Source: a virus
Strand: one strand, 5' to 3'
Length of the DNA: 64,000 nt
Virus record (IMG/VR): IMGVR_UViG_3300028920_000037
Location: 62,001-126,000 of that record
Made by a program: the position numbers and the translations under genes
In this document: positions 14,871 through 49,652 of the stretch, in pieces
How positions within the stretch are numbered: the first letter of the stretch is position 1
Layout: every line of letters starts with the position of its first letter
The notes under the pieces: model-generated
The model's input: the letters and a program-made list of their open reading frames with translations, nothing else
Told to the model about the DNA's origin: nothing
The model's database searches: none

Positions 14871-14895
14871 CCACTAAACCGAAGCACCAGACTAT

Positions 14896-15159: not shown

Positions 15160-15171
15160 TCGTTTAACACG

Positions 15172-16191: not shown

Positions 16192-16249
16192 TGCACTTCC
16201 GTTCGTCGAGCCATACTATTGGTTGAACATCCACGGTTGGAAGGATAAG

Positions 16250-16423: not shown

Positions 16424-16429
16424 GACGCT

Positions 16430-17842: not shown

Positions 17843-17854
17843 AAAAGCCAACAT
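17731..17854. repeat. 62-bp tandem direct duplication (two copies)
   Basis: Copy 1 at 17731-17792 and copy 2 at 17793-17854 match at 59 of 62 positions. The unit length is not a multiple of three, so it frameshifts the gene at 17606. Confidence 0.93.
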
Positions 17855-17870
17855 CTAAAGAGGTTCAGCA

Positions 17871-25360: not shown

Positions 25361-25888
25361 ATGGAACACGACGAGGAACCGATCAACGCACTGTGTAGGA
25401 CGGCAAACATGGTCGATGTGTTTGCTGTTCTGATCTACAAGCACGACCCGATGTCGCTCCAGTCTCCCGATCCACTCGAGTATGAATCTGAAGCGTTATC
25501 GATCACCGCACGGTTCATTGAGTCGGGCGTGCACGCTGCAAACGATGACGTTGCTGTGCCTGCTGCAGTCGAGATCGTAAGGAACGCGTTTATCTTCTGG
25601 TTTGAAGACGATGATGCAGCACTCAGCGCTCGTGCAAAGGGAGCGGACTACGGTCCGCTCGCAAAGGAGCTTGTTGAAGCGCTTCGCACAGAATTTGTGG
25701 AGGAGTTTGCAGAGCTCGATGAAGAATCGCCCACTGGCGTGCAGGCAGAGTTTGCTGCCGCTGTTGGCTTGAACGTTGAGTTTCCGCTGAGCGAACGTAC
25801 AACGCCCGGAACGCCTCGTGCCAAGGTCGTTGCAGAGGATAACATGGATCTTGATGGTCCACCAATCATCATCAGGGAGAAAAAGTGA
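25361..25888 (+). CDS. Hypothetical acidic protein
   Basis: 175 residues, acidic (about pH 4 by eye), helical N-terminal two-thirds and a Pro-containing tail ending GPPIIIREKK. First gene of a unit with the UDP-glucuronate decarboxylase, whose GTG overlaps this stop (GTGA). No family recognised. Confidence 0.65.
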   Translation: MEHDEEPINALCRTANMVDVFAVLIYKHDPMSLQSPDPLEYESEALSITARFIESGVHAANDDVAVPAAVEIVRNAFIFWFEDDDAALSARAKGADYGPLAKELVEALRTEFVEEFAELDEESPTGVQAEFAAAVGLNVEFPLSERTTPGTPRAKVVAEDNMDLDGPPIIIREKK

Positions 25889-29310: not shown

Positions 29311-29532
29311 ATGAAAGCAACGGCTGAATTCACGATCATCGAGCTAGAGCCAGGTACGTATTTTTCAGGATACGTCGGTACGTTGCCTCTTACGATTGAG
29401 TGGGCAAGCGTCGGTAACCCGCTGCTTGCGACAAGAGCACAACCAGGGTCGCTCGATGCTATTAAGGAAATGTTTCCGCATGCAAGGTACATGAGGGTCG
29501 AGGCAACCGCAGAGTGCGAGTACTATGAGTGA
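29311..29532 (+). CDS. Small hypothetical protein
   Basis: 73 residues, beta-rich (ATAEFTIIELEPGTYFSGYVG). GGAGGT at about 29300 gives the ATG at 29311. Stop overlaps the polymerase start, so it is probably translated together with it. Confidence 0.6.
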   Translation: MKATAEFTIIELEPGTYFSGYVGTLPLTIEWASVGNPLLATRAQPGSLDAIKEMFPHARYMRVEATAECEYYE

Positions 29533-31792: not shown

Positions 31793-33707
31793 CGCCTCTA
31801 CACGGCACACATCTGCAAACGCGATCGCCCGCGAGCTTGGAACGTCTGCATATAAGGTGCGAAGGGTCCTGAGCGATAATAACGTAACGCTTAAGCAGCA
31901 CATCGATCCAAACGCGATTCCAGAACACGAACATGAGCATGTTGTTGAACTACTTCGTGGTGGTATGTCGCGTGTTGACGTTGCAAAGAGGTTCAATTCG
32001 ACCATCAATGCCGTCAAAAAGGTACAAGATACCACGGGGTTTCGCAAACGTGCCGTAAGTCAGCCCAAGCGTTCCAATCACCTCGACGGCAAAGAACGCC
32101 AGATTATTGTGATGTATGAGTCTGGTTGTTCCGTCAATGAGATCGTCACCGCGCTTACAACGACAAAGACGTTTTTGAGACACAAGTTTCAAGAGCTTGG
32201 CATTATGCCATCGGAACGTCGAAAAAGAAAGGCCTTGACGAAGGCGGAGATGCTGGAATGTATCTCCCTTCGTTTGACCACCAAGGAGTCAATCAAAAGG
32301 TTGAAGACTACTCCAGCGGTGTTTCGCAAGTTCAGAAAGAAGTACGAGTTGTCATTTAGATACGATCTTGCGCCTAAGGGCGAGGACTTAGATCGTCTTA
32401 TTGCGTTGTTCAAACTTGGTAAAACTGCGCATGAAATTGCTGTTGAGATTTCATCGACTCCATCCTTGGTTACACGAGCCGCACGTCAGCAAGGATTGAT
32501 TTTTCGTGATCGTGTCAAGCAGAGGAAGATCATTCCAGAACATAGGATCAAAGATTTTAAACGCTTGTTCGAACGTGGGGATACAAAGCAACAGCTCGCA
32601 ACCACGTTTAAAACGACGACATATGTTGTCAATGCGACTGTTGCCCACATTGGACTGTCATTTGATGCTCGTGATGTACAGATTGCGCGTAACAACGCAG
32701 TTGAGCGCATAAACACGTTCGAACATTTAAACGTCATTGATGCGTCAGCATACAGGACGATGTACGGCCTCGACATACACGTTGAGTGTCTCAAATGTGG
32801 CCATAAATGGTGGGACTGCTACAATACGCTTCGAAATGGATTCTGTAGAGGGTGTTCTGTTAGGAGCAAACCGGAACTGGAAATATCACAGTTCATCGAT
32901 TCGATCGAAGGTATCTCTGTCGTTCGAAACACTCGAACGATCATTTCACCGCTCGAACTCGATGTCTATGTACCTGAACTTAAGCTTGCTGTTGAGTTCA
33001 ACGGGATATACTGGCATTCTGAAAAGGCAGGTACACCAAATAACTACCACGATCAAAAGATGCGTCGATGTCTAGAAAAAGGCATCATGCTTCTGCAATT
33101 TTTTGAAGATGAATGGTGGCACAAGCGTAACATTGTTGAAAGCATGATTATGCATCGTTTGGGGCGCTCAACGCGACGCGTGTTTGCAAGAAAGACCAGT
33201 GTAGTTGAAGTTCATAGCAAACAAAGGCAGGAGTTTTTTGCTCGAAATCACATAGATGGAGACGTCCCAGCAACAAAGGCGTGGGGGCTTGAATTAGATG
33301 GTGAACTCGTATCTGTGATCAGCGTGCGGCAGCCAAAACACAAGAAATACAATAACGCGATTGAAATCGCACGTTTTGCGTCAGTGTTGGGAACCGTCGT
33401 ACCCGGTGCGCTCGGCAGGTTGATGGTGCGTGTTTGTGAATTTTCTAATGACATGAACATTTCACAGATTGTTACATATGTCGATCTACGCCACGGTACA
33501 GGTAGGGGATACGAAGGCGTTGGATTTAGGCTCGATCATCTGACACCACCCAGATTTTGGTGGACAGACTTCAAACAACGCTATGATAGGTTCAAGTTCA
33601 AGGCAGACAAGGAGAATAATCTGACGCAGGAACAGGTCGCTAAGACCGCTGGAGTATGGCGAATTTTTGGTTGTTCGAATGCTTTGTATATCATGGATGT
33701 GCGCTAG
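31743..33707 (+). CDS. Homing endonuclease with HTH repeats and Vsr/EDxHD-like nuclease domain
   Basis: 654 residues inserted in the first dnaE break. The N-terminal 300 residues carry at least five helix-turn-helix-like repeats (e.g. SANAIARELGTSAYKVRRVL; MSRVDVAKRFNSTINAVKKV). Zn pair CLKCGHKW and CRGC follow, then the nuclease pattern RTIISPLELDVYVPELKL, VEFNGIYWHSE, CLEKGIMLLQFFEDEW. A C-terminal domain (ATKAWGLELDGELVSVISVRQ) resembles those of other phage enzymes of this type. Start overlaps dnaE out of frame; lower GC than dnaE. Probably mobile and self-spreading. Confidence 0.85.
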   Translation: MMKLTTIGSELTQKVLDASTRHTSANAIARELGTSAYKVRRVLSDNNVTLKQHIDPNAIPEHEHEHVVELLRGGMSRVDVAKRFNSTINAVKKVQDTTGFRKRAVSQPKRSNHLDGKERQIIVMYESGCSVNEIVTALTTTKTFLRHKFQELGIMPSERRKRKALTKAEMLECISLRLTTKESIKRLKTTPAVFRKFRKKYELSFRYDLAPKGEDLDRLIALFKLGKTAHEIAVEISSTPSLVTRAARQQGLIFRDRVKQRKIIPEHRIKDFKRLFERGDTKQQLATTFKTTTYVVNATVAHIGLSFDARDVQIARNNAVERINTFEHLNVIDASAYRTMYGLDIHVECLKCGHKWWDCYNTLRNGFCRGCSVRSKPELEISQFIDSIEGISVVRNTRTIISPLELDVYVPELKLAVEFNGIYWHSEKAGTPNNYHDQKMRRCLEKGIMLLQFFEDEWWHKRNIVESMIMHRLGRSTRRVFARKTSVVEVHSKQRQEFFARNHIDGDVPATKAWGLELDGELVSVISVRQPKHKKYNNAIEIARFASVLGTVVPGALGRLMVRVCEFSNDMNISQIVTYVDLRHGTGRGYEGVGFRLDHLTPPRFWWTDFKQRYDRFKFKADKENNLTQEQVAKTAGVWRIFGCSNALYIMDVR

Positions 33708-33750
33708 TTAAAATAACACTGTGTGATATACCCCCAATCAGGAACGTTTG

Positions 33751-34407
33751 ATGATCATACCGAGTGGAAAGAAGCACGTTGTCTGGGCACGTATAGCAAA
33801 GACGGGTTCTATGTCAACAGAAAGAACGCTCACTGCATTGGGTGTGTTTATGCCACTGCGAAACGTGCTTCGTCGCCGAGAGGCGTACAAACCAAACAAG
33901 CACATCCTTGTCGTTGATGACCTTGGAAAGCTAGCTGACGTCGGCGTGAACGTTGACGATTGCTTCATCTTTACGATCGTTCGATCGCCTTACTCACGTG
34001 CGATGTCAGCGTGGTGTGGACACACCTTCTTCAAGGAAAAGAACAGGGACAACTTTGCCGACTGCATCAGGAACCCTCCCCAGCGTCCAGACAAGGGCTA
34101 CAGAGAGCTTGGGAACAAGAAGGAAAAGGCTATCGAGGGCGCATGGAGACATTTCACAAAAACGATGTCGCAGTCGACGTCAATAGACGGTGCCTTACGC
34201 GTTGACAGGATCATCAAGCTCGAGGACTACAAGAACGGGCTGACTGCGGTGCTCGAAGAGCTAGGATTCAAGAAGATCAAGTTCTTCAAGGAGAACAAGA
34301 GTCGCTTTCGCAAGAAGCGTGACCTGAAGCCGGAAGAGATCAGGCTCATCAATGCAAACTATTCTGAAGACTTCGACAATTTCAAATACGAAAAGAAAGA
34401 GGGCTGA
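33751..34407 (+). CDS. Sulfotransferase-family protein
   Basis: About 218 residues. 5'-phosphosulfate-binding-like ARIAKTGSMSTERTL (residues 13-27) and 3'-phosphate-binding-like TIVRSPYSRAMSAWCG (about 78-93) match the two PAPS-binding motifs of carbohydrate sulfotransferases. An RVDRIIKLEDYKNGL segment typical of the family follows. ATG 33751 follows AGGAACG; TTG 33748 is an alternative. Acceptor unknown. Placed between the first endonuclease and the second dnaE piece, so it may have been carried in with the insertion. Confidence 0.75.
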   Translation: MIIPSGKKHVVWARIAKTGSMSTERTLTALGVFMPLRNVLRRREAYKPNKHILVVDDLGKLADVGVNVDDCFIFTIVRSPYSRAMSAWCGHTFFKEKNRDNFADCIRNPPQRPDKGYRELGNKKEKAIEGAWRHFTKTMSQSTSIDGALRVDRIIKLEDYKNGLTAVLEELGFKKIKFFKENKSRFRKKRDLKPEEIRLINANYSEDFDNFKYEKKEG

Positions 34408-34582
34408 CTGCATTGTACCCGGTGACATCGTCGGCGATGAAGATGTCACCGTTGGTCCTCGCTTGTTCCTTGTGCTTTCAGTCGTGCCACGTATGTGGAT
34501 GATCGATTTTACCGTGTTGAACCCTTTGGGTGGAACGCAGATATGCTGTTCAACGCCTTACAAAGGACACAAAGTCCTTTAG
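34352..34582 (+). CDS. Small hypothetical protein
   Basis: 76 residues from an ATG within the sulfotransferase gene. The part after the sulfotransferase stop looks coding (VPGDIVGDEDVTVGPRLFLVLSVV), a beta-barrel-like pattern, so the true start may be a rare codon near 34410. Ends inside a hairpin. Low confidence in the N-terminus. Confidence 0.4.
   Translation: MQTILKTSTISNTKRKRADCIVPGDIVGDEDVTVGPRLFLVLSVVPRMWMIDFTVLNPLGGTQICCSTPYKGHKVL
34562..34580 (+). terminator. Hairpin upstream of the second dnaE piece
   Basis: AAAGGAC, loop ACAAA, GTCCTTT. Probably ends the insertion-associated transcript before the new promoter at 34663. Confidence 0.45.
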
Positions 34583-34662
34583 GGACTTACCCAACATTCC
34601 AGTTGCATACAACGCAACGCCTCAGCTGCTCAGTGGAACGTACATTACTGAAGATTAACACA

Positions 34663-34691
34663 GTGTAGATCGTGCCGTCGTATTGTAGGAT
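34663..34691 (+). promoter_or_regulatory. Leaderless promoter of the second dnaE piece
   Basis: GTGTAG (34663-34668), 17 nt, TAGGAT (34686-34691), 6 nt, ATG at 34698. It shows that the second polymerase piece is a separately expressed gene. Confidence 0.75.
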
Positions 34692-34697
34692 AAACAC

Positions 34698-35624
34698 ATG
34701 GCTCTAGTAAAAGCTGTCAGGACGAGTACGCCCGACTTTCCTGAGATCCAGACGTTCTACAACGAACACCTTCATCCAGATGTGATCGACTTTGAAGACC
34801 AAGACGTCTACAAGTATGTTTTTCACGGCGGACGTTGGGCTGGCATCTTTCAGGCAACACAGAGGCCGACACAGAACTTCTTCGTCCAGTGCAAGCCGAC
34901 GACCGTAACAGACCTTGCAGCGATCACATCAATCTGGCGTCCGGGTCCACTCGCCGGCAAGATGCACGAGCTGTACGTCGATGCAAAGTTCAACAAACCG
35001 TACGATTGGGGACATCCACTCCTGAACGAGACACTGGCAGATACGTACGGTCTCTTGATCTTTCAGGAGCAGATCATGCTCCTTGCAAACAAGGTTGCTG
35101 GGTATGACATGGCCCAATGTGACCAGGTCCGCCGCGCAATCCTAAAGCGCTCTCTCGCGACAGGTGAAGCAGCAAAAAAGGAGGCAGCTGAGCTCGAGGA
35201 GAGCTTTACGGACGGCTGCGTGAAGAACGGTGTGCCCCTCACCGTTGCAAAGAAGCTCTATCAAAACATCCTTGCTTGGGGTGGGTACGGTTTCAATAAA
35301 AGTCTGTGTAGAGAGGATATGGTGATAGTTAATAACTATGAAACCAAACAACTCGATCAAGTTATTCCTGGCGACCAAGTCCTTACCCGAGACGAAGAGA
35401 GCGGACAAAACGTTTATACAGAGGTGCAAGAAGTCCATGACCATGGTACGCTTGAGCTCGTGGAGGTTGAACTAGACACAGGAGAAACGATCAGGTGTAC
35501 GTTGGATCACAAGTTCAGGACGAAGGAGACGGGAGAGATGCTTCCTCTATGGTTGATAGCGAAGCAGCAGTACAGCATCGTTGTAGACGATGCGGCAAAG
35601 AATTCAAATCAGATATCTGGCTGA
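34698..35624 (+). CDS. dnaE: DNA polymerase III alpha, middle piece fused to N-terminal half of a split intein
   Basis: 308 residues. Extein: FYNEHLHPDVIDFEDQDVYK, WAGIFQATQ, WRPGPLAGKM and TYGLLIFQEQIM are fingers-region DnaE motifs; it ends at GGYGFNK. The intein N-half then starts SLCREDMVIV (block A), with IPGDQVLTRD and block B ETIRCTLDHKFRT (TxxH). Joining after GFNK to SHATGYAM in the 36780 gene rebuilds the conserved DnaE GFNKSHA motif exactly, so intein residue 1 is Ser rather than the usual Cys. The last about 25 residues overlap, out of frame, with an endonuclease gene. Confidence 0.9.
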   Translation: MALVKAVRTSTPDFPEIQTFYNEHLHPDVIDFEDQDVYKYVFHGGRWAGIFQATQRPTQNFFVQCKPTTVTDLAAITSIWRPGPLAGKMHELYVDAKFNKPYDWGHPLLNETLADTYGLLIFQEQIMLLANKVAGYDMAQCDQVRRAILKRSLATGEAAKKEAAELEESFTDGCVKNGVPLTVAKKLYQNILAWGGYGFNKSLCREDMVIVNNYETKQLDQVIPGDQVLTRDEESGQNVYTEVQEVHDHGTLELVEVELDTGETIRCTLDHKFRTKETGEMLPLWLIAKQQYSIVVDDAAKNSNQISG

Positions 35625-36607
35625 ACAAACACGAAGCCAGGTGCAATGAACCCATCTACCTTCCTGAGGAAGAAGGAAAGAAGTGGGTTGCTTGCAAAAT
35701 CTGTGGTCACAAAGGCGTTCGCATTGGTAAACACCTGAAATCTGCGCACGGGCTGACGACCAAAGAATACACAGCACAATTCCCAGATGCTTTGACGTCA
35801 GCGCTCGATGAAATTCAGAAGATGAGTGAGGCGTGCAACTGGATTGATCGTGCCAAAGAAAACGGCGACGATCTCAGCGAGTATCGTCAACGAATGGGTG
35901 CTGCAGTTTCTCAGTCGATCATGTCAAATCCAGAAGAGCGAGCTCGTCGCTCGGTCCAGATGGCCGTGAACAACCAAACACCTGAAGCTCGTGAAAAGTC
36001 ACGTGTTACCGCAAAGAAGACATCTCAGCGTCAAGATATACTTGATCAACGTACACATAATCTTGCAAATTGGCGTGAAAAACATCCTGATGATTTTGCA
36101 AAGTGTACAAACGCGATGTTACAAACTAGTGTTTCATCACCAGAGCTTGAGTTGTTTTACATTATTGATGTTTTATCCTCAATGAAAGTTATTTGTTGTG
36201 ATGTGAAACGTCAACAAAGGATTCAAGATGTTAGTTTTACAGCAAGTAAAACACATATGTTTTGTGTTGACATTACCTGCATTTTTCAAAACGTATGTGT
36301 TCATATTGAGATTGATGGTATCCATCATTTTCAACAAATTGCAAGTTTTGATCTCAACAAACGACAACGACGTGATCAAGAATTTGAAAACTGGATCAAT
36401 GCTCGAAATGATGTGATGCTTGTTCGATTGTCATACGATACGTGGGAAACACGTCGCTGGCAAGAAAACAAAGAAAAGATGAGTAGGACATTTTTCTCCC
36501 AACCTGCTCTCGAGGCCCTCTTCAGCCTTCTCAAGAATCCTAAACCTGGCGTCCACTGTATCGGCCAGGCATACGGTGAAAGGAACCTGCTGTGTGGAAG
36601 CCAATAA
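35555..36607 (+). CDS. Free-standing endonuclease inside the split-intein locus
   Basis: About 350 residues from ATG 35555 (the frame is open from 35495). N-terminal C2H2-like finger CRRCGKEFKSDIWLNKHEARC split across residues 12-32, second finger CKICGHKGVRIGKHLKSAHG with a LTTKEYTAQFP tail, NUMOD-like helices, and a C-terminal nuclease-like domain: CVHIEIDGIHHFQQ and RNDVMLVRLSYDTWE. The arrangement (split intein halves with an endonuclease ORF between) matches the fractured-gene loci described for phage split inteins. Strongly AT-rich in its 3' half. Confidence 0.8.
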   Translation, partial: DSEAAVQHRCRRCGKEFKSDIWLNKHEARCNEPIYLPEEEGKKWVACKICGHKGVRIGKHLKSAHGLTTKEYTAQFPDALTSALDEIQKMSEACNWIDRAKENGDDLSEYRQRMGAAVSQSIMSNPEERARRSVQMAVNNQTPEAREKSRVTAKKTSQRQDILDQRTHNLANWREKHPDDFAKCTNAMLQTSVSSPELELFYIIDVLSSMKVICCDVKRQQRIQDVSFTASKTHMFCVDITCIFQNVCVHIEIDGIHHFQQIASFDLNKRQRRDQEFENWINARNDVMLVRLSYDTWETRRWQENKEKMSRTFFSQPALEALFSLLKNPKPGVHCIGQAYGERNLLCGSQ

Positions 36608-36810
36608 GCTCAATTCCTAGGAAAAAGTGTTTCGTTTTAACGCGACGGATGCACATCATTACAGTAATTCCAGATGCTGACGGTTCATGGTGCATTCCAA
36701 CATCGTCGGGGTGGGAAGAGGTTTCAATTGAAAACGATCTTGCTTGGTCACCGTTTCCTGATATGGAAGAATTTGCATCATGCCTGAGCCTGTTGACAAA
36801 GAACAGTTGA
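36592..36810 (+). CDS. Small protein resembling the DUF551 fold
   Basis: 72 residues from GTG. WKPISSIPRKKCFVLTRRMHI, then GSWCIPTSSGW and WSPFPDMEEF: the W-x-x-I...P / W...P.P pattern of short phage DUF551-like proteins. Located between the endonuclease and the C-terminal intein gene and overlapping the latter's start by 31 bp. Function unknown. Confidence 0.5.
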   Translation: MWKPISSIPRKKCFVLTRRMHIITVIPDADGSWCIPTSSGWEEVSIENDLAWSPFPDMEEFASCLSLLTKNS

Positions 36811-38108
36811 AGACATTCCTTGGCGCCCTCGGCGAGGCGATCGCAAAGGGTGATTTTCCTGATTCTGACATTGTGAATGACACGTCGTTGTCAGAGGAAG
36901 AATTTGAACGTATTCTAAAAGAACGTGTTGCGGCGAGGTACAACAGACCCCGCAAGAAGCTAACGATTGAAGAGATCGAACTTGCGGTTTTAAAAGGTCC
37001 ACAGCCTACAGGTAGGATCGTTTCGATCAGAGAGGTCGGCGAGCATCCTACCCGAGACCTATCTGTGGCGCATCCAGATCATCAGTTCTACCTTGCAAAC
37101 GGCGTGTTAACAAGCAACAGCCATGCCACGGGATACGCGATGATCTCGTACCAGTGTGCCTACCTCATGACGTATTACGAGGCGGAATGGCTGTGTTCAT
37201 ACCTCGAATCGATGAGCGGGAACGAGAACTCTCGCGCAAAGGCATTCGCGGAGGTCAGGTCACTCGGATACAACATCGTTCCGATCGACATCAATTCGGC
37301 ACGTGTAGGGTGGACAAGCATTCTCGGAAAGAAGTTCATGCCCTCGTTCACAACGTGCAAGGGAGTAGGTGCCGCTGCTGTCCAGGAGATCGTCGAGGCT
37401 CGCCCGTACGAGAAGTTCGAAGATGTTCTCTGGGACGACGAAGGAAATTGGCGTCACAGCAAGTTCAACAAGAGGGCGTTCGAGGCGTTGGTAAATATCG
37501 GAGCGTTTGCGAGCCTCGACTGTGTAGGTGAAGGTAAGCTCTTTGAATCGTACGCCCAGATGCACTGGGTTCTGTTTGGTTCTCACACGGCGAAGGTCAA
37601 GAAGAAGCGCAAAGGCGCTGAGGTCGAAGTGGAGAAGAAGTTCGACCATTTTGCCTGGATCAAACGTAATCCAACAATGGATCCTCACGAAGGTCGTAGG
37701 AACTTCTACGAGCTCATCAGGATGTCAAGCGGACAGATCGAACCTTGGACGCGGAGGGAGTGGGCTCTGAAGAACATCGAGCACTTCGGCTCACTCGACG
37801 TTCGAAGCCTCGTGGAGCCAAGCGTCCTTGAAGTCTTTGAAGAGAAGGGTCTACGTTCAATCGATGAGTACGAGGACGAGGACGTCTACTGGTTTTGCAT
37901 TGTCAAGGTCGAAAAGAAGACAACACGGAACGGTAAGAAGTACCTCCTGTTGTACGCCCAAGGACCTGCAGGGAAGGTCTTCAGGATATACGCCTGGGGG
38001 TGGAACGGAAAGCGTATAGTTGACCTCTACGCGGTCTGTTTTGCCGAACTTAAGAAGTCGGACTTTGGGTTCGCAACGAGCATGTACAAGCTGCGTGAGC
38101 TTGAGTAG
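36780..38108 (+). CDS. dnaE: C-terminal half of split intein fused to DNA polymerase III alpha C-terminal piece
   Basis: 442 residues. Residues 1-76 are an extra helical region with no known match. The C-intein follows: GRIVSIREVGEHPTRDLSV then HQFYLANGVLTSN, ending in the required Asn with Ser as +1. The penultimate residue is Ser, not the usual His. The extein SHATGYAMISYQCAYLMTYY continues DnaE through helix-hairpin-helix (CKGVGAAAVQEI) to an OB-like domain (WFCIVKVEKKTTRNGKKYLLL). Trans-splicing with the 34698 product would give the fingers and C-terminal part of the polymerase. Confidence 0.9.
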   Translation: MPEPVDKEQLKTFLGALGEAIAKGDFPDSDIVNDTSLSEEEFERILKERVAARYNRPRKKLTIEEIELAVLKGPQPTGRIVSIREVGEHPTRDLSVAHPDHQFYLANGVLTSNSHATGYAMISYQCAYLMTYYEAEWLCSYLESMSGNENSRAKAFAEVRSLGYNIVPIDINSARVGWTSILGKKFMPSFTTCKGVGAAAVQEIVEARPYEKFEDVLWDDEGNWRHSKFNKRAFEALVNIGAFASLDCVGEGKLFESYAQMHWVLFGSHTAKVKKKRKGAEVEVEKKFDHFAWIKRNPTMDPHEGRRNFYELIRMSSGQIEPWTRREWALKNIEHFGSLDVRSLVEPSVLEVFEEKGLRSIDEYEDEDVYWFCIVKVEKKTTRNGKKYLLLYAQGPAGKVFRIYAWGWNGKRIVDLYAVCFAELKKSDFGFATSMYKLRELE

Positions 38109-39101: not shown

Positions 39102-39254
39102 ATGAAACCATTTGATGGAACATCGTGGTCGCTGCACCTCGGTGTCTATCTGTCGTTCTGGGTATGGGGAAGAGCTGACGATGCCATCGAGTATGATGGC
39201 ATCGTAATTCCAAATTGGGGCTTCGGTCCCCTGTTCCTCTTCAATTACTACTGA
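39102..39254 (+). CDS. Small aromatic-rich protein
   Basis: 50 residues from ATG 39102 (an ATG at 39078 is in frame). A GGGGTG site lies 8 nt upstream. WSLHLGVYLSFWVWGRADDA and IPNWGFGPLFLFNYY are strongly hydrophobic and aromatic. The stop overlaps the next start (TGATG). Membrane association is likely; function unknown. Confidence 0.5.
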   Translation: MKPFDGTSWSLHLGVYLSFWVWGRADDAIEYDGIVIPNWGFGPLFLFNYY

Positions 39255-39811
39255 TGGAACAAATGCCAAAGACACGTCAACACATCATCTGCTTCGTCGG
39301 TCCTGATATGACCGGCAAGACAAACATCTCTCGTGAGCTTTCGCGTAGGACGAGCATCCCGCGGTTCAAGGCGTCATCCGAACACATGACGTTCACCGAT
39401 GAACAGGATCGTTTCCTTACTCAGCTTCGCGTTGCGGACGTCAGGCAGCTCGACCTCCTGCAGCAGGTCGGATTTTCGATGATCATGGACCGTGGTTGGC
39501 CGTGTGAATACGTGTATGCGAAGTTCTTCGATAGGACAACTGACATCGAACAGCTTCGTTCGAACGATAGGAGCTACGCAGCGCTCGGAGCACAGGTCGT
39601 CTTCTGTTATCACGATGATTATAATGGATTCCGTGACGATCTCAATCCAAAAATCGGTCCCGCTGAACTGAGGCGACTACACGACCTGTATGAAGAATTC
39701 TTTGAGCTAACTAGGTGTCCAGTAGTGCGGCTATGTGTGGATGACCTGAACCTCGATCGTCAGATGCGCGATCTAAGGGATGGGCTTCACATCGAACTTG
39801 TAAGGAAGTGA
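39254..39811 (+). CDS. P-loop nucleoside/nucleotide kinase
   Basis: About 185 residues. P-loop IICFVGPDMTGKTNISREL at residues 10-28, a central MIMDRGWPCEYVYAKF segment (DR-x-x-E) typical of deoxynucleoside and thymidylate kinases, and a C-terminal LHDLYEEFFEL helix. Could act on a modified dNMP or a salvage nucleoside; substrate not deducible. Starts in a TGATG overlap rather than at the upstream frame start 39215. Confidence 0.75.
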   Translation: MEQMPKTRQHIICFVGPDMTGKTNISRELSRRTSIPRFKASSEHMTFTDEQDRFLTQLRVADVRQLDLLQQVGFSMIMDRGWPCEYVYAKFFDRTTDIEQLRSNDRSYAALGAQVVFCYHDDYNGFRDDLNPKIGPAELRRLHDLYEEFFELTRCPVVRLCVDDLNLDRQMRDLRDGLHIELVRK

Positions 39812-41986: not shown

Positions 41987-42058
41987 ATGAAGAAGCTTCT
42001 GGCGCAATTTGTGTTGCAAACTGATATTGTTGTTGAAATCAAATCAATCAACAACTAA
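41987..42058 (+). CDS. Possible 23-residue peptide
   Basis: An AGAGGAA ribosome site precedes the ATG. Peptide KKLLAQFVLQTDIVVEIKS. Its first residues resemble the start KKLLIQTQLSNYD of the glycosyltransferase-like protein just downstream, so it may be a remnant duplicate. Low confidence. Confidence 0.3.
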   Translation: MKKLLAQFVLQTDIVVEIKSINN

Positions 42059-42070
42059 AATACGCAAGTG

Positions 42071-43447
42071 ATGCAATATCGTTTGGAAGGACATCAACGT
42101 GCCATTTCCCAACGATTGAAATTGATCGTGGATTTCCATAGAAACATGAAGAAATTACTGATACAAACACAATTAAGCAACTACGATACACAAGGTAAAT
42201 TTATCCTTGAGTGCGATAGCGGGTACAACATGATGATGGGTAGAACTAGAGTTCTCCTTCAACAAGTTCCTGACTTGAAGGTCTTCATCACAGGTCCTCA
42301 GCTAAACCAATGTAGAACCTCGCCGTATGATCTCAACGCCGATCTGTTCAATGATTTTGGCAACAGGTTGAAGTACATCCCGCTGCTGCTGATCCCGAAC
42401 GCCCTTGCTACGCGTTACGATTTTGTGTTCGAAGACATCGCACGAGCGTTGGACCTGGGCGAAGATGGGCATGAACCATTTACACACGTCTTCATCAACG
42501 ATCCGATGTTGTTGAGGAACTTTCAGGCCCTGTTCTTCCTCAAGGGAAAGTACAGACCGAAGTACATCGTCCATTCGCACTTCATCGACAATCCAGAGTG
42601 TCCGAAGTTCCCGACCGAGGCTTCGCTCTGGATGGGACAGATGGAAGCAGCGTTCAAGGCTGACTTCAACTTCTGGCAGTGCGAATCGTCGCTGCAGGTG
42701 TTCCTCAAATCTGCGATGAACTGGCTGTGTGAGGACCTGGTCGCTGTGATCAGGCACAAGTCACTTCCTTGGGACGATGGGTACAGCAGTGAGGAGATAA
42801 ACTCTCCAATCAATATGAACAACGTCAGGTTTGATGTAAATGACCTAGCACGAAAGACGGTAGGCAAGACTGTCGTTTTCGTACCGAACAGGATCGGTGG
42901 TTTTGGTCGCAGCAGCGACTACACGAACTGTGGAAGGTTCATGTTTGAGACGGTACCTCGTGTGCGGAAGATGAGGGACGACTTCGTCGTCATCGCTGGA
43001 AATCCGAGCCAGAAGATCCTGAACCACGAGCTCGAGGAGCTATGTCCGGCGTTCCTCAACCTTGTTCCGGATGCATTGAACAGAGACGAGTACAAGTACG
43101 TTGCAAGGCACATTCAGGACATCAGTGTCGGACTCTACAACCAGGACAGCTACGGTGGCACGGCAGCTCGTGAGCTCTGCGACGTAGGAACGATCCCACT
43201 GTGGGTCGACAACTATGAGTACACCCAGATTGCGCTCCTTGCCGGTTTACCGAAGGACATGATGATCGCTCCTGACCTCTCCAATATGGATGAGACGCTC
43301 GTGTTTATGCTTGACTGGATTTCTCAAGTCAAGCATGATGCTCCTGAAGAGATCAAAGGCTGGCATGATCGTCTTAGCGATGTTGTCTACAGGCGTTGTT
43401 CATACGAGGCGACATCCGACGAGGCGATCCGGCACATGGGTCTTTGA
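42071..43447 (+). CDS. Glycosyltransferase-like protein (GT-B type, tentative)
   Basis: About 458 residues from ATG 42071; an ATG at 42146 begins a cleaner Rossmann-like first strand (KKLLIQTQLSNYD) and may be the real start. Other supportive segments are KYIVHSHFIDNPE, KTVVFVPNRIGGFGRSS (start of a second Rossmann domain, about residue 260), DDFVVIAGNPS, and SVGLYNQDSYGGTAARELCDVGTIPLW, which resembles the donor-binding E-x7-E region. Next to a UDP-sugar epimerase and a TS-family base-modifying enzyme. Donor and acceptor unknown; DNA hydroxymethylcytosine is one option. Confidence 0.6.
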   Translation: MQYRLEGHQRAISQRLKLIVDFHRNMKKLLIQTQLSNYDTQGKFILECDSGYNMMMGRTRVLLQQVPDLKVFITGPQLNQCRTSPYDLNADLFNDFGNRLKYIPLLLIPNALATRYDFVFEDIARALDLGEDGHEPFTHVFINDPMLLRNFQALFFLKGKYRPKYIVHSHFIDNPECPKFPTEASLWMGQMEAAFKADFNFWQCESSLQVFLKSAMNWLCEDLVAVIRHKSLPWDDGYSSEEINSPINMNNVRFDVNDLARKTVGKTVVFVPNRIGGFGRSSDYTNCGRFMFETVPRVRKMRDDFVVIAGNPSQKILNHELEELCPAFLNLVPDALNRDEYKYVARHIQDISVGLYNQDSYGGTAARELCDVGTIPLWVDNYEYTQIALLAGLPKDMMIAPDLSNMDETLVFMLDWISQVKHDAPEEIKGWHDRLSDVVYRRCSYEATSDEAIRHMGL

Positions 43448-43472
43448 ACACCGTGTGCGTGAGTTGTACAAT
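43444..43472 (+). promoter_or_regulatory. Leaderless-type promoter before the epimerase
   Basis: TTGAAC (43444-43449), 17 nt, TACAAT (43467-43472), 8 nt, ATG at 43481. Confidence 0.7.
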
Positions 43473-43480
43473 ATTCATGT

Positions 43481-44440
43481 ATGTCAAAACGTGTCTTGAT
43501 CACAGGTGGCGCGGGCTTCATCGGTAGCAACCTAGCCCGTCGCTGTGTTGATGAAGGATATAAGGTTGTCGTAGTCGATAACCTTTCAAATGGCCATAGG
43601 GAGTTCCTGCCCTATGGTCTCGATGAGTTTTGGGAGGACGACTTCTCGGCGGAGTGGGTCCTTGGCGTCGTCTCATCGGGGGTGTTTGATACCATTTTCC
43701 ACGTCGCGGCTGTACCGCGTGTCAGCTACTCGGTCGAACACCCGATTGAGACGAACGAGACGAACGTATCGAAGACACTCGCTTTGATAGACGCTGCAAA
43801 AGAGAAGACGCGAAGGTTCATCTTTTCGTCCTCGTCAAGCGTCTACGGCGGAGCAGACGTGCTGCCGACGCCAGAGACCGAACCGTTCAACGCAAAATCA
43901 CCTTACGCGTTGCAGAAGGTCATCATTGAGCAGTACCTGAAACTGTATCACGACATCTACGGGCTCGATAGCTGCAGCCTGCGCTACTTCAACGTCTTCG
44001 GACCGAACCAGCTAGGAGATTCTCCTTACGCGACTGCTGTAAGCGCGTGGTTGACGGCGATCTTCAAGGGAGGTGAATGCCGAAGTGATGGCAACGGTGG
44101 GCAGTCAAGGGATATGTGCTATGTTGACAACGTTGTTGAAGCAAACATGCTTGCGATGAAGAAGTCAAGCTACCTCGGTGCAGAATCATACAACGTTGCG
44201 TGTGGCGACAGTACGACGAATAACGAGATCCTTGAACACCTCAAGGAACGCTTCGGTAACAAGGTCAAGGTCAAGAACGCACCGTGGCGACCCGGCGATG
44301 TCATGCACACCCAGGCTGACATCACAAAGATCCACAACGACCTTGGATACGATGTGAAGGTTAGGTTTTGGGACGGCCTCGACAGGACAATCGCGTGGTT
44401 CGAGGGTTCGAAGCTTGCAAAGCTTAACGGGAAGGTGTAG
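43481..44440 (+). CDS. NAD-dependent sugar-nucleotide epimerase (UDP-4-epimerase type SDR)
   Basis: 319 residues. GGAGFIGSNLARR (residues 8-20), DNLSNGHREFL, SSSSVYGGADVLPTPE and SPYALQKVIIEQYL (catalytic Tyr-xxx-Lys), RYFNVFGPNQ, RDMCYVDNVVEA. Typical of extended SDR epimerases acting on UDP-glucose, UDP-GlcNAc or UDP-xylose. With the UDP-xylose synthase-like gene at 25885 it could make UDP-arabinose (inference). Confidence 0.85.
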   Translation: MSKRVLITGGAGFIGSNLARRCVDEGYKVVVVDNLSNGHREFLPYGLDEFWEDDFSAEWVLGVVSSGVFDTIFHVAAVPRVSYSVEHPIETNETNVSKTLALIDAAKEKTRRFIFSSSSSVYGGADVLPTPETEPFNAKSPYALQKVIIEQYLKLYHDIYGLDSCSLRYFNVFGPNQLGDSPYATAVSAWLTAIFKGGECRSDGNGGQSRDMCYVDNVVEANMLAMKKSSYLGAESYNVACGDSTTNNEILEHLKERFGNKVKVKNAPWRPGDVMHTQADITKIHNDLGYDVKVRFWDGLDRTIAWFEGSKLAKLNGKV

Positions 44441-44443
44441 GTT
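44415..44443 (+). promoter_or_regulatory. Leaderless promoter
   Basis: TTGCAA (44415-44420), 17 nt, TAGGTT (44438-44443), 6 nt, ATG at 44450. Confidence 0.55.
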
Positions 44444-44449
44444 GTAAGC

Positions 44450-44689
44450 ATGTCCGCTGAGCTGCTCTCCATGCTCGATGGCAAGAGAGGTACGTCTGTT
44501 TTGCTGTCAATGAACGTACACGGATACGCGTTCCTGACGCTCATGGAACCGATTGGACTCGATATGTCTCCGGGAGGAAGCATTTCGTATACGTTCGCTC
44601 CAGATGAGGACGGCCTGAGAAACGCTCGATCGTTTGTTGAATCGCTACAACAGTGGATCGAGCACATCGAGTTAACGGAAAAGAAATGA
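44450..44689 (+). CDS. Small hypothetical protein
   Basis: 79 residues with its own leaderless promoter. SVLLSMNVHGYAFLTLMEP and GGSISYTFAPDEDGLRNARSF suggest an alpha/beta fold. Starts a short operon with the next small gene and the TS-family enzyme. Confidence 0.6.
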   Translation: MSAELLSMLDGKRGTSVLLSMNVHGYAFLTLMEPIGLDMSPGGSISYTFAPDEDGLRNARSFVESLQQWIEHIELTEKK

Positions 44690-44895
44690 GCACATACGTG
44701 ACAAGTGATGCGTGGCATCGTCTCTGCTGTGAGTTAGACCTTCGAAAAGCTGTCTTTGAAACGCTTGCAAACATTGGCAGCGAAATGAATTTTCAGCTTC
44801 CACCAGAAGAGTTACTAAAACTTGTGATGAAACGTTCGAAGGGAACATTGGATCCTGCGGTCGCAAAGACGTACATTGAAGGGCTTTACAAATGA
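44686..44895 (+). CDS. Small hypothetical protein
   Basis: 69 residues from ATG 44686 overlapping the previous stop; its own stop overlaps the next start. Helical (HRLCCELDLRKAVFETLANI; EELLKLVMKRSKGTLDPAVA). Not recognised. Confidence 0.6.
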   Translation: MSTYVTSDAWHRLCCELDLRKAVFETLANIGSEMNFQLPPEELLKLVMKRSKGTLDPAVAKTYIEGLYK

Positions 44896-45923
44896 CGTTG
44901 CACATATATGAAAACTTCACCGATGCATACCGTGGCCTTCTTGAGGACGTCTATTCTTCTCCTGAATTTGTTTGCGCGCCGCGCGCGCAAAAGATAAAGG
45001 AAAAGCTCGGTGTTCGATTCGTGATTACGAATCCACTCGCCAGGCTTCCATTCATCAGACCCCGCGACTTTGCAGTCAACTACATTGTCGCTGAAGGTAT
45101 CTGGTACTTCGCCGGTATTGAGCTCACAGAGTGGATCTCGTACTACAGCAAGTTCTGGGAAAAGATCAGCGATGACGGTAGGAACGCGAATTCTGCGTAC
45201 GGCGCGAGGATATTCAAACCTCACAAACGAGCGGGAAAAGATCCAACAAACCAGCTTGATAGCTGGACACAGTGGGACTGGTGCATTAAGGAGCTGGTGA
45301 ACGATAACGACTCGCGTAGGGCGGTCGTGCACATCAGGAACCCTCTCGATTCTCGGTACGCTGTGAAGGATGTTCCTTGTACCCTCACGTTGCAGTTTTT
45401 CCTGAGGGACGACAAGGTCCACCTCTGTGTGGCGATGCGATCGTCTGACCTTTGGTTGGGCATCGCAAATGACGTTCCGGCGTTCACGCTCTTTCAAGAG
45501 CTAATGGCGATCGACCTTGAAAAAAGGCTTCGTCGTCCAATCGACGTCGGCACGTACACCCACATCAGCAACTCACTGCACATCTACGAACGTAACTTCA
45601 AGAAAGTTGAAGAGGTGATCGAGGAACCAGAATCCGAGCGCTCTGGGTCGATATCTATGCCCAAGATGCCGTCAGCCCCGCCGCTTGAAATGCTTCTCAT
45701 AGCAGAACAGGACATTCGAGGTGCTACGTCTACCGAAGAGGTTGGACGTCATGTCGCTGTCTTCTCTGATCTGGCAGCGTTGCATGGGACCATCGAACGC
45801 TACTGGGTCGATTGGATCAAGGTGCTTGCAAGTCATCGCTGCGGCAAGCTCGACGACAAAGATGCTCAGAGGCGTTTTCTTGATGAAACATCATGGGAAG
45901 GCTACCACTTCTTCGACAGGTGA
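44892..45923 (+). CDS. Thymidylate-synthase-family enzyme, probable dCMP hydroxymethylase
   Basis: 343 residues. TS-family core: FIRPRDFAVNYIVAEGIWYFAG, NSAYGARIF, phosphate-binding SRRAVVHIRNP, the nucleophile in DVPCTLTLQFFL, MRSSDLWLGIANDVPAF and SLHIYERNF. Where TS has the Asn of FNIASY that selects dUMP, this protein has Asp (NDVPAF); the same change distinguishes T4 dCMP hydroxymethylase (established). With ThyX already present, dCMP is the likely substrate, giving 5-hydroxymethyl- (or methyl-) dCMP. About 100 extra C-terminal residues are unexplained. Confidence 0.78.
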   Translation: MTLHIYENFTDAYRGLLEDVYSSPEFVCAPRAQKIKEKLGVRFVITNPLARLPFIRPRDFAVNYIVAEGIWYFAGIELTEWISYYSKFWEKISDDGRNANSAYGARIFKPHKRAGKDPTNQLDSWTQWDWCIKELVNDNDSRRAVVHIRNPLDSRYAVKDVPCTLTLQFFLRDDKVHLCVAMRSSDLWLGIANDVPAFTLFQELMAIDLEKRLRRPIDVGTYTHISNSLHIYERNFKKVEEVIEEPESERSGSISMPKMPSAPPLEMLLIAEQDIRGATSTEEVGRHVAVFSDLAALHGTIERYWVDWIKVLASHRCGKLDDKDAQRRFLDETSWEGYHFFDR

Positions 45924-45926
45924 CAC

Positions 45927-46508
45927 ATGACATGCATCATTGGGCTTGAGTGCGACGGCGAGGTCTACGTTGGAACCGACAGTGCGTTGAGTGACACATG
46001 GACGATCTCGTCACTTGCGGCTCGTGAGAAGGTTTTCGTCAAGCACGACATGATCTTCGGAGTCTGTGGCTCGATGAGGTTGGCGCAGCTGCTACACCAC
46101 GCCTTGGAGGTTCCAGAGCACGAGGAAGAAAAGGATGTCATGTCATACCTTGTTGTTGACTTTGTCGACTCTCTGAGGGAGATGCTCAAGGACAAGGGAA
46201 CTCTGTACACGTCGGATGATGAAGGCAAAGTTGAGTACCTGCCGAACTCAGCGTTCATCCTTGGATACGGTGGCAAGGTCTATGTCGTTGATGAGGACAT
46301 GCAGGTGTCTCGTTCGGTCGGTGGGTTCATGTGCGAAGGCTCGGGCAAGGAGGTCGCAACCGGAGCGATGCAGGTCCTAAAGGACAGGCACGACCTCACG
46401 CCCGAGGATAAGATCAGAAAGGCGCTCGAGGCGAGTGCCCTTCACACGTGCTATGTCCAAGGACCCTTCCATGTCATGAAACTGTCGGACGATGACGATG
46501 ACGACTGA
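45927..46508 (+). CDS. Proteasome-beta/HslV-like Ntn hydrolase
   Basis: 193 residues. TCIIGLECDGEVYVGTDSALS starts right after Met, putting Thr at position 2 as N-terminal nucleophile once Met is removed. VGTDSAL (Asp17-like), REKVFVKHDMIFGVCGSMR (Lys33-like) and FMCEGSGKEVATGAM (the GSG loop) follow the proteasome-subunit pattern. No HslU/ATPase partner is visible nearby. An acidic Asp-run closes the protein. Could be a peptidase acting on phage or host proteins; substrate unknown. Confidence 0.78.
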   Translation: MTCIIGLECDGEVYVGTDSALSDTWTISSLAAREKVFVKHDMIFGVCGSMRLAQLLHHALEVPEHEEEKDVMSYLVVDFVDSLREMLKDKGTLYTSDDEGKVEYLPNSAFILGYGGKVYVVDEDMQVSRSVGGFMCEGSGKEVATGAMQVLKDRHDLTPEDKIRKALEASALHTCYVQGPFHVMKLSDDDDDD

Positions 46509-46776
46509 TATTTGTGGCGTTTGTGGAGCCTTGCTGTTACGAAACAGTGGCTACAGTCTACCTTCGGACGAGATGTGTAGGGCGTCAGGGAAAAGGGGCG
46601 GTGAGCTGAAGATCTGCGCTGACGGATCGATCAAGATCTGGCACTATGGGCTACGTAAGTGGGTCGAGACCGAACCTTGCGGCACGTACGGATGCGCAAG
46701 GTTGAAGGTAAACGACCTTCTGTCGGTCGTGCATCAAAGAATACCTGGAAGATCCAGATGCATTCAAGTGAGATGA
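46492..46776 (+). CDS. Small Cys-containing protein
   Basis: 94 residues, start overlapping the upstream gene by 17 bp. CGVCGALL, EMCRASG, LKICADGS and EPCGTYGCARL provide several Cys residues for a possible zinc site. Not recognised. Two bases before thymidine kinase. Confidence 0.55.
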   Translation: MTMTTDICGVCGALLLRNSGYSLPSDEMCRASGKRGGELKICADGSIKIWHYGLRKWVETEPCGTYGCARLKVNDLLSVVHQRIPGRSRCIQVR

Positions 46777-46777
46777 G

Positions 46778-47347
46778 ATGAATCCTGAGTTCATAATTTA
46801 TTGTGGCCCAATGTTTTCGACGAAGACCACTTCAATGTTCTTACGTCTAGAACGCTTTGAGCTCCAACATAGAGCCACACGGCTCTTCAAACCGATCGGC
46901 GATGAACGGTATAGCACCGACGAGGTCGTTACGCACTCTGGCTGGAAACGTCCGGCAACAAGGGTCTCTAAGGGCCTTGACATCCTGAAGCAGATCGAAG
47001 AGGACCCGCCGAGCATTGTTGCAGTCGATGAGGCGTTTATGATACAGGACGTCTACAAGGTCCTCCCGTGGTTGTTCAAGAACGGTGTGACGATTGTCGT
47101 CGCTAGTCTTGATCTTGCGTTCAACGGAAAGTCGTTCAAGGAGGTCGAAAAGATGCTGCCGTGGGCGACAGAGGTACACAAGTGTCCTGCGGTATGTACT
47201 GTCTGTGGCGCAAATGCGTTTTATACGCATAGAAAGACGTCTGACGATGAAGACATCATCGTAGGGGGCGCTGAGATGTACGAACCTAGATGTTTTTCTC
47301 ATCACCCTGTTATAAATGAGGGATTTGGAAATGTTTCTTCGCGTTGA
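46778..47347 (+). CDS. tdk: Thymidine kinase
   Basis: 189 residues. Salvages thymidine to dTMP. P-loop IYCGPMFSTKTTSM (the usual Gly is Thr), VVTHSGWKRPAT, IVAVDEAFMI (DE), ASLDLAFNGKSF and a zinc lasso CTVCGANAFYTHRK. The last 15 residues (HHPVINEGFGNVSSR) look unlike the family C-terminus, where the usual second Cys pair is reduced to RCFSHH. The downstream endonuclease insertion probably altered this end. Confidence 0.9.
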   Translation: MNPEFIIYCGPMFSTKTTSMFLRLERFELQHRATRLFKPIGDERYSTDEVVTHSGWKRPATRVSKGLDILKQIEEDPPSIVAVDEAFMIQDVYKVLPWLFKNGVTIVVASLDLAFNGKSFKEVEKMLPWATEVHKCPAVCTVCGANAFYTHRKTSDDEDIIVGGAEMYEPRCFSHHPVINEGFGNVSSR

Positions 47348-48569
47348 AAAGAATGGTCGCAAAAAGAAGCATATTATCAAATGCGATAACTGTGGTATCG
47401 AAGTTGAACGTTACGCCGCACATGCAAAAGGCAATGTTCACTTTTGCTCTAGAAGATGTAGCAATGCGGCAAAACGAGCGTCGATTCTCGTAACAAAAGC
47501 GTGTGAAACTTGCGGAAAAGAATTTATAAGGATCCCATCACTTTCTGGTCGCTATTGTTCCAAATCATGCGCAATAAAGTCACGATACGTCAACAAGTCA
47601 ACTTGGACAAAGGTTGCTTGTGACACGTGTGGGAAAACAATCGAAAAACGTAAGATCCACGTTGGCCAACGTTCATACTGTTCACGAGAGTGTTTGAGTA
47701 TTGGGCATGCTAAGACTCACTCTTCACATAACGTTCGATGTAACAAGGCAAAGGGTATAAAACGTGGAATCTATTTAACACTTGATGGTCGTTCGATCAA
47801 GTATGATTCTTCGTATGAACTTCGTCGTATGCGAGAATACGACTACATCATCGATGATGAACTTGAATCATGGGAACGATGTGATCTAATCGTACCTTAC
47901 ATCGATGTGAACGGCAAAAAGAGAAGTTATAATCCAGATTTTTTGCTTCGATACACTGATGGTTCTGTTGTTATCGAAGAAGTTAAGGGGCGTTTAACAG
48001 ACAATGATGTTTTGAAATTCAACGCGTTGATTTCGTATTGTGCACATCAAGGAGATAACGTACAGGCTAGGATGTTTTCAAATCCAGATTTTGATGATAT
48101 TGAGGTCAAAACAAGCGTGTACAAAAACGATTACGGTGTGTTTTCTAGGCCGACATTAGAGTACATCTTTATAAAGATGGCGCTTCTTCTCGCAGAACGT
48201 TCAACATGCCTTCGAAAGAAGGTAGGTGTTGTGTTTACAGATTCAGAGATGCGTCATGCGTACTGCGTTGGTTATAACGGAGATGAAAAGGGTGGCAAAA
48301 ATCAATGTGAATCCCTTGATCCCGGGAAGTGTAACTGCATACACGCAGAAATTAACGCATTGACGAAGAATAATATTGACATTACAGGATGTACGTGTTT
48401 TGTCACCCTGGCACCATGTCCGGTTTGTGCTAAGGTTTTGATTAATCGTGGCGTCAAAAAAGTGATTTATCACGAAGCATATAGAAATTCGAGAGGATTA
48501 CAACTGCTTCATCAGCGTGGTGTTGAAGTCGTAAAGTATGCTTCTTTAGAAACAACGTCTGGTTCCTAG
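47316..48569 (+). CDS. Fusion of zinc-finger PD-(D/E)xK endonuclease and dCMP deaminase
   Basis: 417 residues. Residues 20-130 hold three similar Cys clusters (CDNCG...CSRRC; CETCGKEF...CSKSC; CDTCGK...CSREC). Residues 145-265 form a nuclease-like domain: RSIKYDSSYELRRM, SYNPDFLLRYTDGSVVIEEVKG (PD..EVK). From about residue 280 a complete zinc deaminase follows: ALLLAERSTCLRKKVGVVF, CIHAEINAL, LAPCPVCAKVLI and VIYHEAYR. The AT-rich endonuclease appears inserted in frame at the 5' end of a dCMP deaminase gene. Start overlaps tdk out of frame. Confidence 0.82.
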   Translation: MRDLEMFLRVEKNGRKKKHIIKCDNCGIEVERYAAHAKGNVHFCSRRCSNAAKRASILVTKACETCGKEFIRIPSLSGRYCSKSCAIKSRYVNKSTWTKVACDTCGKTIEKRKIHVGQRSYCSRECLSIGHAKTHSSHNVRCNKAKGIKRGIYLTLDGRSIKYDSSYELRRMREYDYIIDDELESWERCDLIVPYIDVNGKKRSYNPDFLLRYTDGSVVIEEVKGRLTDNDVLKFNALISYCAHQGDNVQARMFSNPDFDDIEVKTSVYKNDYGVFSRPTLEYIFIKMALLLAERSTCLRKKVGVVFTDSEMRHAYCVGYNGDEKGGKNQCESLDPGKCNCIHAEINALTKNNIDITGCTCFVTLAPCPVCAKVLINRGVKKVIYHEAYRNSRGLQLLHQRGVEVVKYASLETTSGS

Positions 48570-48926: not shown

Positions 48927-49652
48927 ATGGGCAAGAAAAAAAACGATGAACGTCCTGTCGTGAGCATCAGTGACAACAAACTGAGGCAGTTCGTTAAGGA
49001 CGCGGTATCCAAGCACGGAAACCTGAGTCCATTGGAGGAAGCGTACGTCTCTGAACCAAAGCCATTCAAGCAGGTTACAGACATGGTTTCTCAACGAACC
49101 AAGGACGGGCACCAGGAACTCTATAAGGGGTACGTTGACGCGTTGAACAGGACAGTCGCCGAGCTTGAGGCGATCGAAACGACCGGTGCAAACGCGATGC
49201 ATTCCGAATATAGGTCCGCTCGCCTTGATGAAACGTATAACCTGAACGCAAAGTGGCTGCATGAACTTTACTTTGCGAACTGCTTTGACCCGAATAGCAA
49301 CGTCTATATGGACTCTCAGGCGTTTATCAGGTTATCGCGCGACTTCGGAAACTTCGAACGTTGGCAGAAGGATTTCATCGCGTGTGCTCTAAGCGCCGGC
49401 GAAGGCTGGGCAGTCTGCGGCTACAACATGCACTTGAGGCGTTACACCAACACGTTCATCAGCCACCATTCTGGTGATGTGATGCTTGGGATGTTCCCGA
49501 TCGTCGTCCTCGACATGTGGTCGCATGCGTATCATAAGGACTACGTCATCGACAGGCAGAGCTACATTGTTGCAATGATGCGAGAGCTGAATTGGAATGT
49601 CATTGAGGACAGGATCGGTGTGGCCGAAAAGATCGCAGGAGTATTGAAGTGA
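48927..49652 (+). CDS. Fe/Mn superoxide dismutase-like protein with N-terminal leader
   Basis: 241 residues. An N-terminal SISDNKLRQFVKDAVSKHGN leader-like helix precedes an SOD-like domain: GHQELYKGYVDALNRTVAEL (first helix), NAKWLHELYFANCF (second His), FGNFERWQKDFIACALSAGEGWAVC, and VVLDMWSHAYHKDYVIDRQSY split over residues 191-212, giving the Asp and His ligands. The first His ligand is shifted by one residue (GH instead of HH), so activity is uncertain. Preceded by a late-type motif, so a virion-located protein is plausible. Confidence 0.7.
   Translation: MGKKKNDERPVVSISDNKLRQFVKDAVSKHGNLSPLEEAYVSEPKPFKQVTDMVSQRTKDGHQELYKGYVDALNRTVAELEAIETTGANAMHSEYRSARLDETYNLNAKWLHELYFANCFDPNSNVYMDSQAFIRLSRDFGNFERWQKDFIACALSAGEGWAVCGYNMHLRRYTNTFISHHSGDVMLGMFPIVVLDMWSHAYHKDYVIDRQSYIVAMMRELNWNVIEDRIGVAEKIAGVLK

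Follow-up and report, generated by a model that had tools for sequence, protein, structure and literature searches.

We analysed 64,000 nucleotides (hereafter the window; positions 62001-126000 of the 140,495-base partial record IMGVR_UViG_3300028920_000037) from an uncultured virus of bacteria, and found in it a gene cassette that very probably turns cytosine into 5-hydroxymethylcytosine (hmC) and adds a sugar to it. The attached sugar is most likely a pentose, either xylose or arabinose. Specifically, we propose, with a probability of about 0.6, that a thymidylate synthase (TS)-family enzyme encoded at 44892 makes 5-hydroxymethyl-dCMP (hmdCMP) and that a UDP-xylose synthase (UXS), a UDP-sugar 4-epimerase and a glycosyltransferase, here called GT1, attach a pentose to hmC in DNA, thereby shielding it. 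Every gene that a first-pass annotation of this DNA had named for such a pathway is present as an open reading frame (ORF) at or close to where it had been placed. At the DNA level, megablast found no match to the region among named phages. The genes central to our proposal are:

25885-26862, plus strand: UDP-glucuronate decarboxylase/UDP-xylose synthase (PDB match, signature residues)
42146-43447, plus strand: GT1, predicted glycosyltransferase of the GT-B fold, proposed to transfer a sugar to hmC DNA (fold model, 18 homologs)
43481-44440, plus strand: UDP-sugar 4-epimerase of the extended short-chain dehydrogenase/reductase (SDR) kind, proposed UDP-xylose/UDP-L-arabinose 4-epimerase (sequence matches, clade tracks UXS)
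44892-45923, plus strand: predicted dCMP hydroxymethylase, MilA-like TS family (Pfam, PDB matches, diagnostic residues)

A predicted dCMP hydroxymethylase

The 343-residue product of 44892 matches the Pfam thymidylate synthase family (1.7e-20). Its best match in the PDB is the CMP 5-hydroxymethylase MilA (1.2e-38), followed by the T4 dCMP hydroxymethylase gp42 (4e-13), with true TS enzymes weaker. The catalytic cysteine expected of a TS-fold dCMP hydroxymethylase is present as Cys163. The first-pass annotation had pointed to an Asp where TS enzymes carry the dUMP-selecting Asn, and the alignments bear this out: at the position of TS Asn177, MilA and gp42 each have an Asp to which Asp194 aligns. 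Asp194 is invariant, together with Ser184 and Arg142, across 22 aligned sequences. An Asp occupies this position in 102 of the 103 loci examined. As regards function, gp42 was the right comparison to make in that annotation; in sequence, MilA is the closest relative of solved structure.

In a metagenomic association study, modified and unmodified contigs were told apart by TS positions 177 and 147 (PMC8670742); in 44892 these positions hold Asp and Thr, the latter in place of His147. Further, Ala176 and Lys133 of MilA favour CMP, and an A176S/K133R double mutant flips the preference to dCMP (PMC5175136). The deoxy-type pair of gp42 (Ser169 and Arg123) is kept in 44892 as Ser184 and Arg142. Given the kinship to MilA and gp42, the dCMP-type residues, a score of 65.3 bits against NCBIfam thymidylate synthase models with a cut-off of 327, and the presence of a ThyX gene in the window, we read 44892 as a dCMP hydroxymethylase. 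That its product would be hydroxymethylated rather than methylated is suggested by this kinship and by the adjoining second-step enzymes.

The predicted glycosyltransferase and sugar-donor genes

The GT1 ORF opens at 42068, but its homologs begin at 42146, so the latter is probably the start of the gene. No Pfam or PHROG family matched the ORF at 42068, and a profile search of PDB sequences returned one weak, chance-level match, to an intron endonuclease. A tblastn search of 50,697 phage records at E 0.01 gave no match, the presence of RB69 among these records being unchecked. An AlphaFold2 model built with 18 homologs (pLDDT 92.5) matches GT-B glycosyltransferases (E 1e-10, probability 1.0) and also phage proteins annotated as glycosyltransferases, in keeping with the glycosyltransferase-like gene that had been noticed upstream of 44892. 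GT1 is therefore predicted to have the GT-B fold expected of an hmC-DNA glycosyltransferase, and from its genomic context we propose that it may act on hmC in DNA.

The assignment of 25885 as UDP-glucuronate decarboxylase-like is confirmed by a 1.6e-78 match to human UDP-xylose synthase (1.6e-37 for the next enzyme kind) and by its keeping 10/10 catalytic and signature residues of the human enzyme, as listed in PMC12820599 Table 3. Likewise, the gene at 43481, which had been annotated as a UDP-sugar 4-epimerase upstream of 44892, encodes an extended-SDR 4-epimerase with the S-Y-K triad kept.

Conservation of the cassette in related viruses

A scan of viral contigs with the single hydroxymethylase sequence gave no relatives, and a scan with an alignment recovered them. 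GT1 is present in 15 other virus contigs, which also carry the epimerase and a hydroxymethylase of the Asp type; several of these contigs are at least 300 kb long and two are near-identical. The gene order recurs with small changes: DNA polymerase III alpha, kinase, GT1, epimerase, hydroxymethylase, HslV-like protein, thymidine kinase (TK) and dCMP deaminase. Such recurrence argues against a chance arrangement. In the relatives, two kinds of enzyme occupy the hydroxymethylase slot, one MilA-like and the other T4-gp42-like. Both are of the Asp type, and finding two divergent enzymes in one slot suggests that cytosine hydroxymethylation has been selected for at this position. Divergent GT1 homologs also lie beside an Asp-type hydroxymethylase in L075, where a nucleotide-sugar dehydrogenase and an SDR are nearby, and near one in L079 and L085.

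UXS was found in 12/14 contigs with GT1 versus 3/14 without it (Fisher p = 0.0018, kinship not corrected for). In the epimerase tree there are two groups, each with full support: clade A, which includes the window's enzyme, and clade B. UXS occurs in all 14 of the clade-A contigs tested and in 1/14 clade-B contigs, two of the latter having been judged via sister contigs with equal match statistics. Because UXS tracks the epimerase clade in this way, the case for a pentose donor is strengthened. In three contigs (L012, L018 and L056) UXS lies directly upstream of the polymerase or the cassette.

Sister cassettes with other second-step enzymes

In sister contigs the slot of GT1 can be taken by a different transferase, GT2, which occurs in 12 related contigs (in one of them weakly) and in 0/14 GT1 contigs. 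The five best PDB matches of its model (pLDDT 83) are all T4 beta-glucosyltransferase (BGT). A UDP-galactopyranose mutase gene adjoins GT2 in 7 of these 12 contigs; in L053 (9017-11217), and also in L047, L057 and L061, the mutase and then the BGT-like transferase directly follow the hydroxymethylase. Together, mutase and epimerase would make UDP-galactofuranose, and we predict galactofuranosyl-hmC in these sister phages. Among the papers searched, which take in little of the subscription literature, we found none on phage DNA modification with the term galactofuranose; as far as they go, this sugar would be new on DNA.

In L038 and L043 a carbamoyltransferase-like gene takes the place of the glycosyltransferase, and L046 resembles them, as judged by eye only. 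A carbamoyltransferase partner is known to make 5-carbamoyloxymethylcytosine (PMC8670742). These contigs also encode a second small protein, of ~220 residues and with faint TS-like motifs (L043:7337-7999, L038:5244-5888, L046:7285-7980), which is flanked by the hydroxymethylase and the carbamoyltransferase-like gene; the one that was scanned had no Pfam match. Since two of the three second-step modules belong to types with known action on hmC, the same role is likely for GT1. More tentatively, and with somewhat less than an even chance in our judgement, all of these may be variants of one modular locus, in which an hmC core of hydroxymethylase, kinase and dCMP deaminase is combined with swappable second steps: UXS, epimerase and GT1 for xylosyl- or arabinosyl-hmC, epimerase, mutase and BGT-like transferase for galactofuranosyl-hmC, and carbamoyltransferase for carbamoyloxymethylcytosine.

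Nucleotide-pool genes and the proposed pathway

The window also encodes enzymes that could prepare the nucleotide pool, along with one further gene conserved in the cassette:

9380-10228, plus strand: ThyX, FAD-dependent thymidylate synthase (TIGR02170 3e-42, PF02511)
10195-10830, plus strand: second thymidylate-kinase-like P-loop kinase (phrog_761 2.5e-12)
11779-12150, plus strand: all-alpha NTP pyrophosphatase, possible dCTPase (phrog_12184 9e-13; dUTPase_2 C-terminal part 8e-7)
39215-39811, plus strand: P-loop (deoxy)nucleotide kinase, proposed hmdCMP kinase (AAA_28 3.5e-6; phrog_761 thymidylate kinase 1.8e-7; synteny)
45927-46508, plus strand: HslV/proteasome-like protein, cassette-conserved (phrog_1040 3e-19; synteny)
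46778-47347, plus strand: thymidine kinase, TK1 type (PF00265 9.6e-41)
47316-48569, plus strand: C-terminal dCMP deaminase domain fused to a zinc-finger/endonuclease-like N-terminal part (PF00383 1.2e-16; phrog_174 1.6e-39)

ThyX scores 144.6 bits against TIGR02170, over the cut-off of 87.9, in keeping with the earlier view that it covers dTMP synthesis. The two kinases and the pyrophosphatase that had been invoked to complete the pathway are present but recognised weakly; PDB sequences gave the 39215 kinase weak P-loop matches only. A kinase of this type adjoins GT1 or GT2 in most relatives, and a dUTPase_2 match like that of the pyrophosphatase was found in 10/11 relatives. The dCMP deaminase, a fusion in the window, is a short, unfused ORF in L007 and L008, and the HslV/proteasome-like gene is present in 1 to 3 copies in the cassettes of many relatives.

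In the pathway that we propose, the 44892 enzyme would convert dCMP to hmdCMP and the phage kinases would raise this to the triphosphate. The pyrophosphatase would lower dCTP and the deaminase dCMP, ThyX and TK would supply thymidine nucleotides, and DNA would be synthesized with hmC replacing cytosine. UXS would turn UDP-glucuronate into UDP-xylose, the 4-epimerase would interconvert UDP-xylose and UDP-L-arabinose, and GT1 would transfer the pentose to hmC in DNA, where it would shield the DNA from host nucleases. The attachment of a pentose to hmC envisaged in the first-pass annotation is supported as far as enzyme classes and their conservation go; from these we infer the cellular substrates, hmC in the virion, DNA as the acceptor, a pentose and its identity, the linkage and the protective role.

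Alternative readings

Several observations weigh against a phage-made pentose on DNA. UXS lies ~16 kb away from the cassette in the window, and two partial contigs (L017 and L019) have GT1 without UXS. The best solved relatives of the 43481 epimerase are UDP-GlcNAc, UDP-GalNAc and UDP-Glc 4-epimerases, and the GT1 model resembles generic GT-B enzymes, with no T4 alpha-glucosyltransferase (AGT) or BGT among the matches listed. In the polymerase tree one clade takes in most of the GT1/UXS contigs, which leaves few independent events. L043 and L016 lie outside this clade and also combine UXS with a clade-A epimerase, so that the pairing reflects more than a single inheritance. We found no UDP-glucose dehydrogenase in the window's own partial record. 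Five relatives (L116, L117, L118, L119 and L120) have nucleotide-sugar dehydrogenase homologs ~320-350 residues long, in which the GGxCFxKD motif is intact and the C-terminal domain seems to be missing; for the one that was scanned, the match to the model stops at position 295 of 413 and falls narrowly short of the cut-off. Because the dehydrogenase is absent from the record and short in these relatives, we do not claim a complete UDP-glucose-to-UDP-pentose route in the phage, and UDP-glucuronate may come from the host.

The kinship of the epimerase makes it possible that hmC is glycosylated with a hexose. A GalE-type epimerase would then provide UDP-galactose or UDP-GalNAc, GT1 would use either of these or host UDP-glucose, and UXS would serve elsewhere, which would fit the two GT1 contigs that show no UXS and its position apart from GT1 in the window. 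We nevertheless consider a hexose unlikely, given the frequency of UXS among GT1 contigs, its presence in every tested contig with the window's epimerase clade, and its place close ahead of the polymerase or cassette in L012, L018 and L056.

Less probable again is a modification that ends at hmC (or 5-methylcytosine), with GT1, epimerase and UXS building a virion-protein glycan or changing the host surface. GT-B and nucleotide-sugar enzymes often serve glycans, and by sequence GT1 is without recognised DNA-transferase kin, but across contigs the hydroxymethylase keeps GT1 and the epimerase as its companions, and in the divergent L075, L079 and L085 too GT1 homologs lie close to Asp-type hydroxymethylases. 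The BGT-like GT2 and the carbamoyltransferase of the sister cassettes, which points to a cytosine hydroxyl, also speak against this reading.

As for 44892 itself, it is very improbable that the enzyme is an ordinary TS or that it hydroxymethylates dUMP: Pfam and PHROG label the protein thymidylate synthase and its BLAST matches include the SPO1 dUMP hydroxymethylase, but Asp replaces Asn177, Thr replaces His147, the score is far under the NCBIfam cut-off and ThyX is also encoded, so that no support for an ordinary TS survives. The slimmest chance is that 44892 hydroxymethylates CMP on the way to a small nucleoside compound, like MilA, its closest solved relative, as Ser and Arg, the dCMP-type residues, stand at both CMP-favouring positions and we noticed DNA polymerase and dNTP genes nearby but no MilB-like or other antibiotic gene.

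Other genes in the window

DNA polymerase III alpha lies in pieces across 29525-38108 (29525-31792, 34698-35624 and 36780-38108) and is whole in the relatives L039, L041 and L066. The last break resembles a split intein, with intein-like ends on the end of the second piece and the start of the third, and an endonuclease-like ORF (35495-36607) lies between these two. A sulfotransferase-family ORF (33748-34407; PF03567, 2e-12) is found within the broken region. RNA-repair-like genes at 13860-18982 comprise an RlaP nucleotidyltransferase, a polynucleotide kinase-phosphatase and an RNA ligase. Just past the cassette is an iron/manganese superoxide dismutase-like protein (48927-49652; C-terminal domain 2.6e-19). 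Two DNA methyltransferase-like genes (10836-11480 and 19815-20594) may add a further layer of DNA modification.

Significance and comparison with known systems

If our proposal is true, pentose-decorated hmC extends past the T4-like phages to large phages that are uncultured; the phage itself would encode the donor pathway, and the glycosyltransferase would belong to a family unseen by Pfam and PHROGs. Sugar modules that are exchanged while the hmC core stays fixed would illustrate how the shielding of phage DNA diversifies, and the genes named here provide recombinant enzymes that can be assayed directly for new DNA sugars.

The T4 glucosyl-hmC system (gp42, alpha/beta-glucosyltransferase, gp56 and gp1) shares the logic of dCMP hydroxymethylase, kinase, dCTPase and GT-B transferase, and the resemblance extends to the BGT fold of GT2 in the sister cassettes. 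T4 uses host UDP-glucose, whereas the window has phage-encoded donor genes and other enzyme sequences. MilA is similar to 44892 in length and in having a C-terminal extension; it differs in its CMP-type Ala176/Lys133 where 44892 has Ser184/Arg142, and the context here is one of DNA replication. The 5-carbamoyloxymethylcytosine system likewise combines an Asp-type TS-family enzyme, a dCMP deaminase and a second-step enzyme acting on hmC (PMC8670742), but in the window a glycosyltransferase and sugar genes stand in for the carbamoyltransferase.

Two further phages are closer in the kind of sugar proposed here. Shewanella phage Thanatos has a pentose-type cytosine modification with a hydroxymethylase-like gene, dCTPase and dCMP deaminase; it differs in its UDP-xylose pyrophosphorylase, an enzyme that we did not identify in the window, and in its reported deoxypentose (PMC12838424). 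RB69 DNA carries arabinosyl-hmC, and UXS with a UDP-xylose 4-epimerase has been named as one possible source of its UDP-arabinose (PMC6024577). Both RB69 and, as predicted from its genes, the window's virus make hmC at the nucleotide level and then decorate it with a pentose. RB69 does so with a T4-gp42 enzyme, ORF003c and unclear donor genes (ORF052_053c, ORF055c) (PMC6024577), whereas the window has a MilA-like hydroxymethylase, UXS and epimerase, and a GT1 without a named-phage match; kinship of GT1 to the arabinosyltransferase ORF003c found no support in the tblastn search of phage records, with its caveat on RB69. Pentosyl-hmC itself is therefore already known, and what sets this virus apart, judging from its genes, would be the MilA-like hydroxymethylase, the UXS/epimerase donor route and a previously unrecognised GT-B family.

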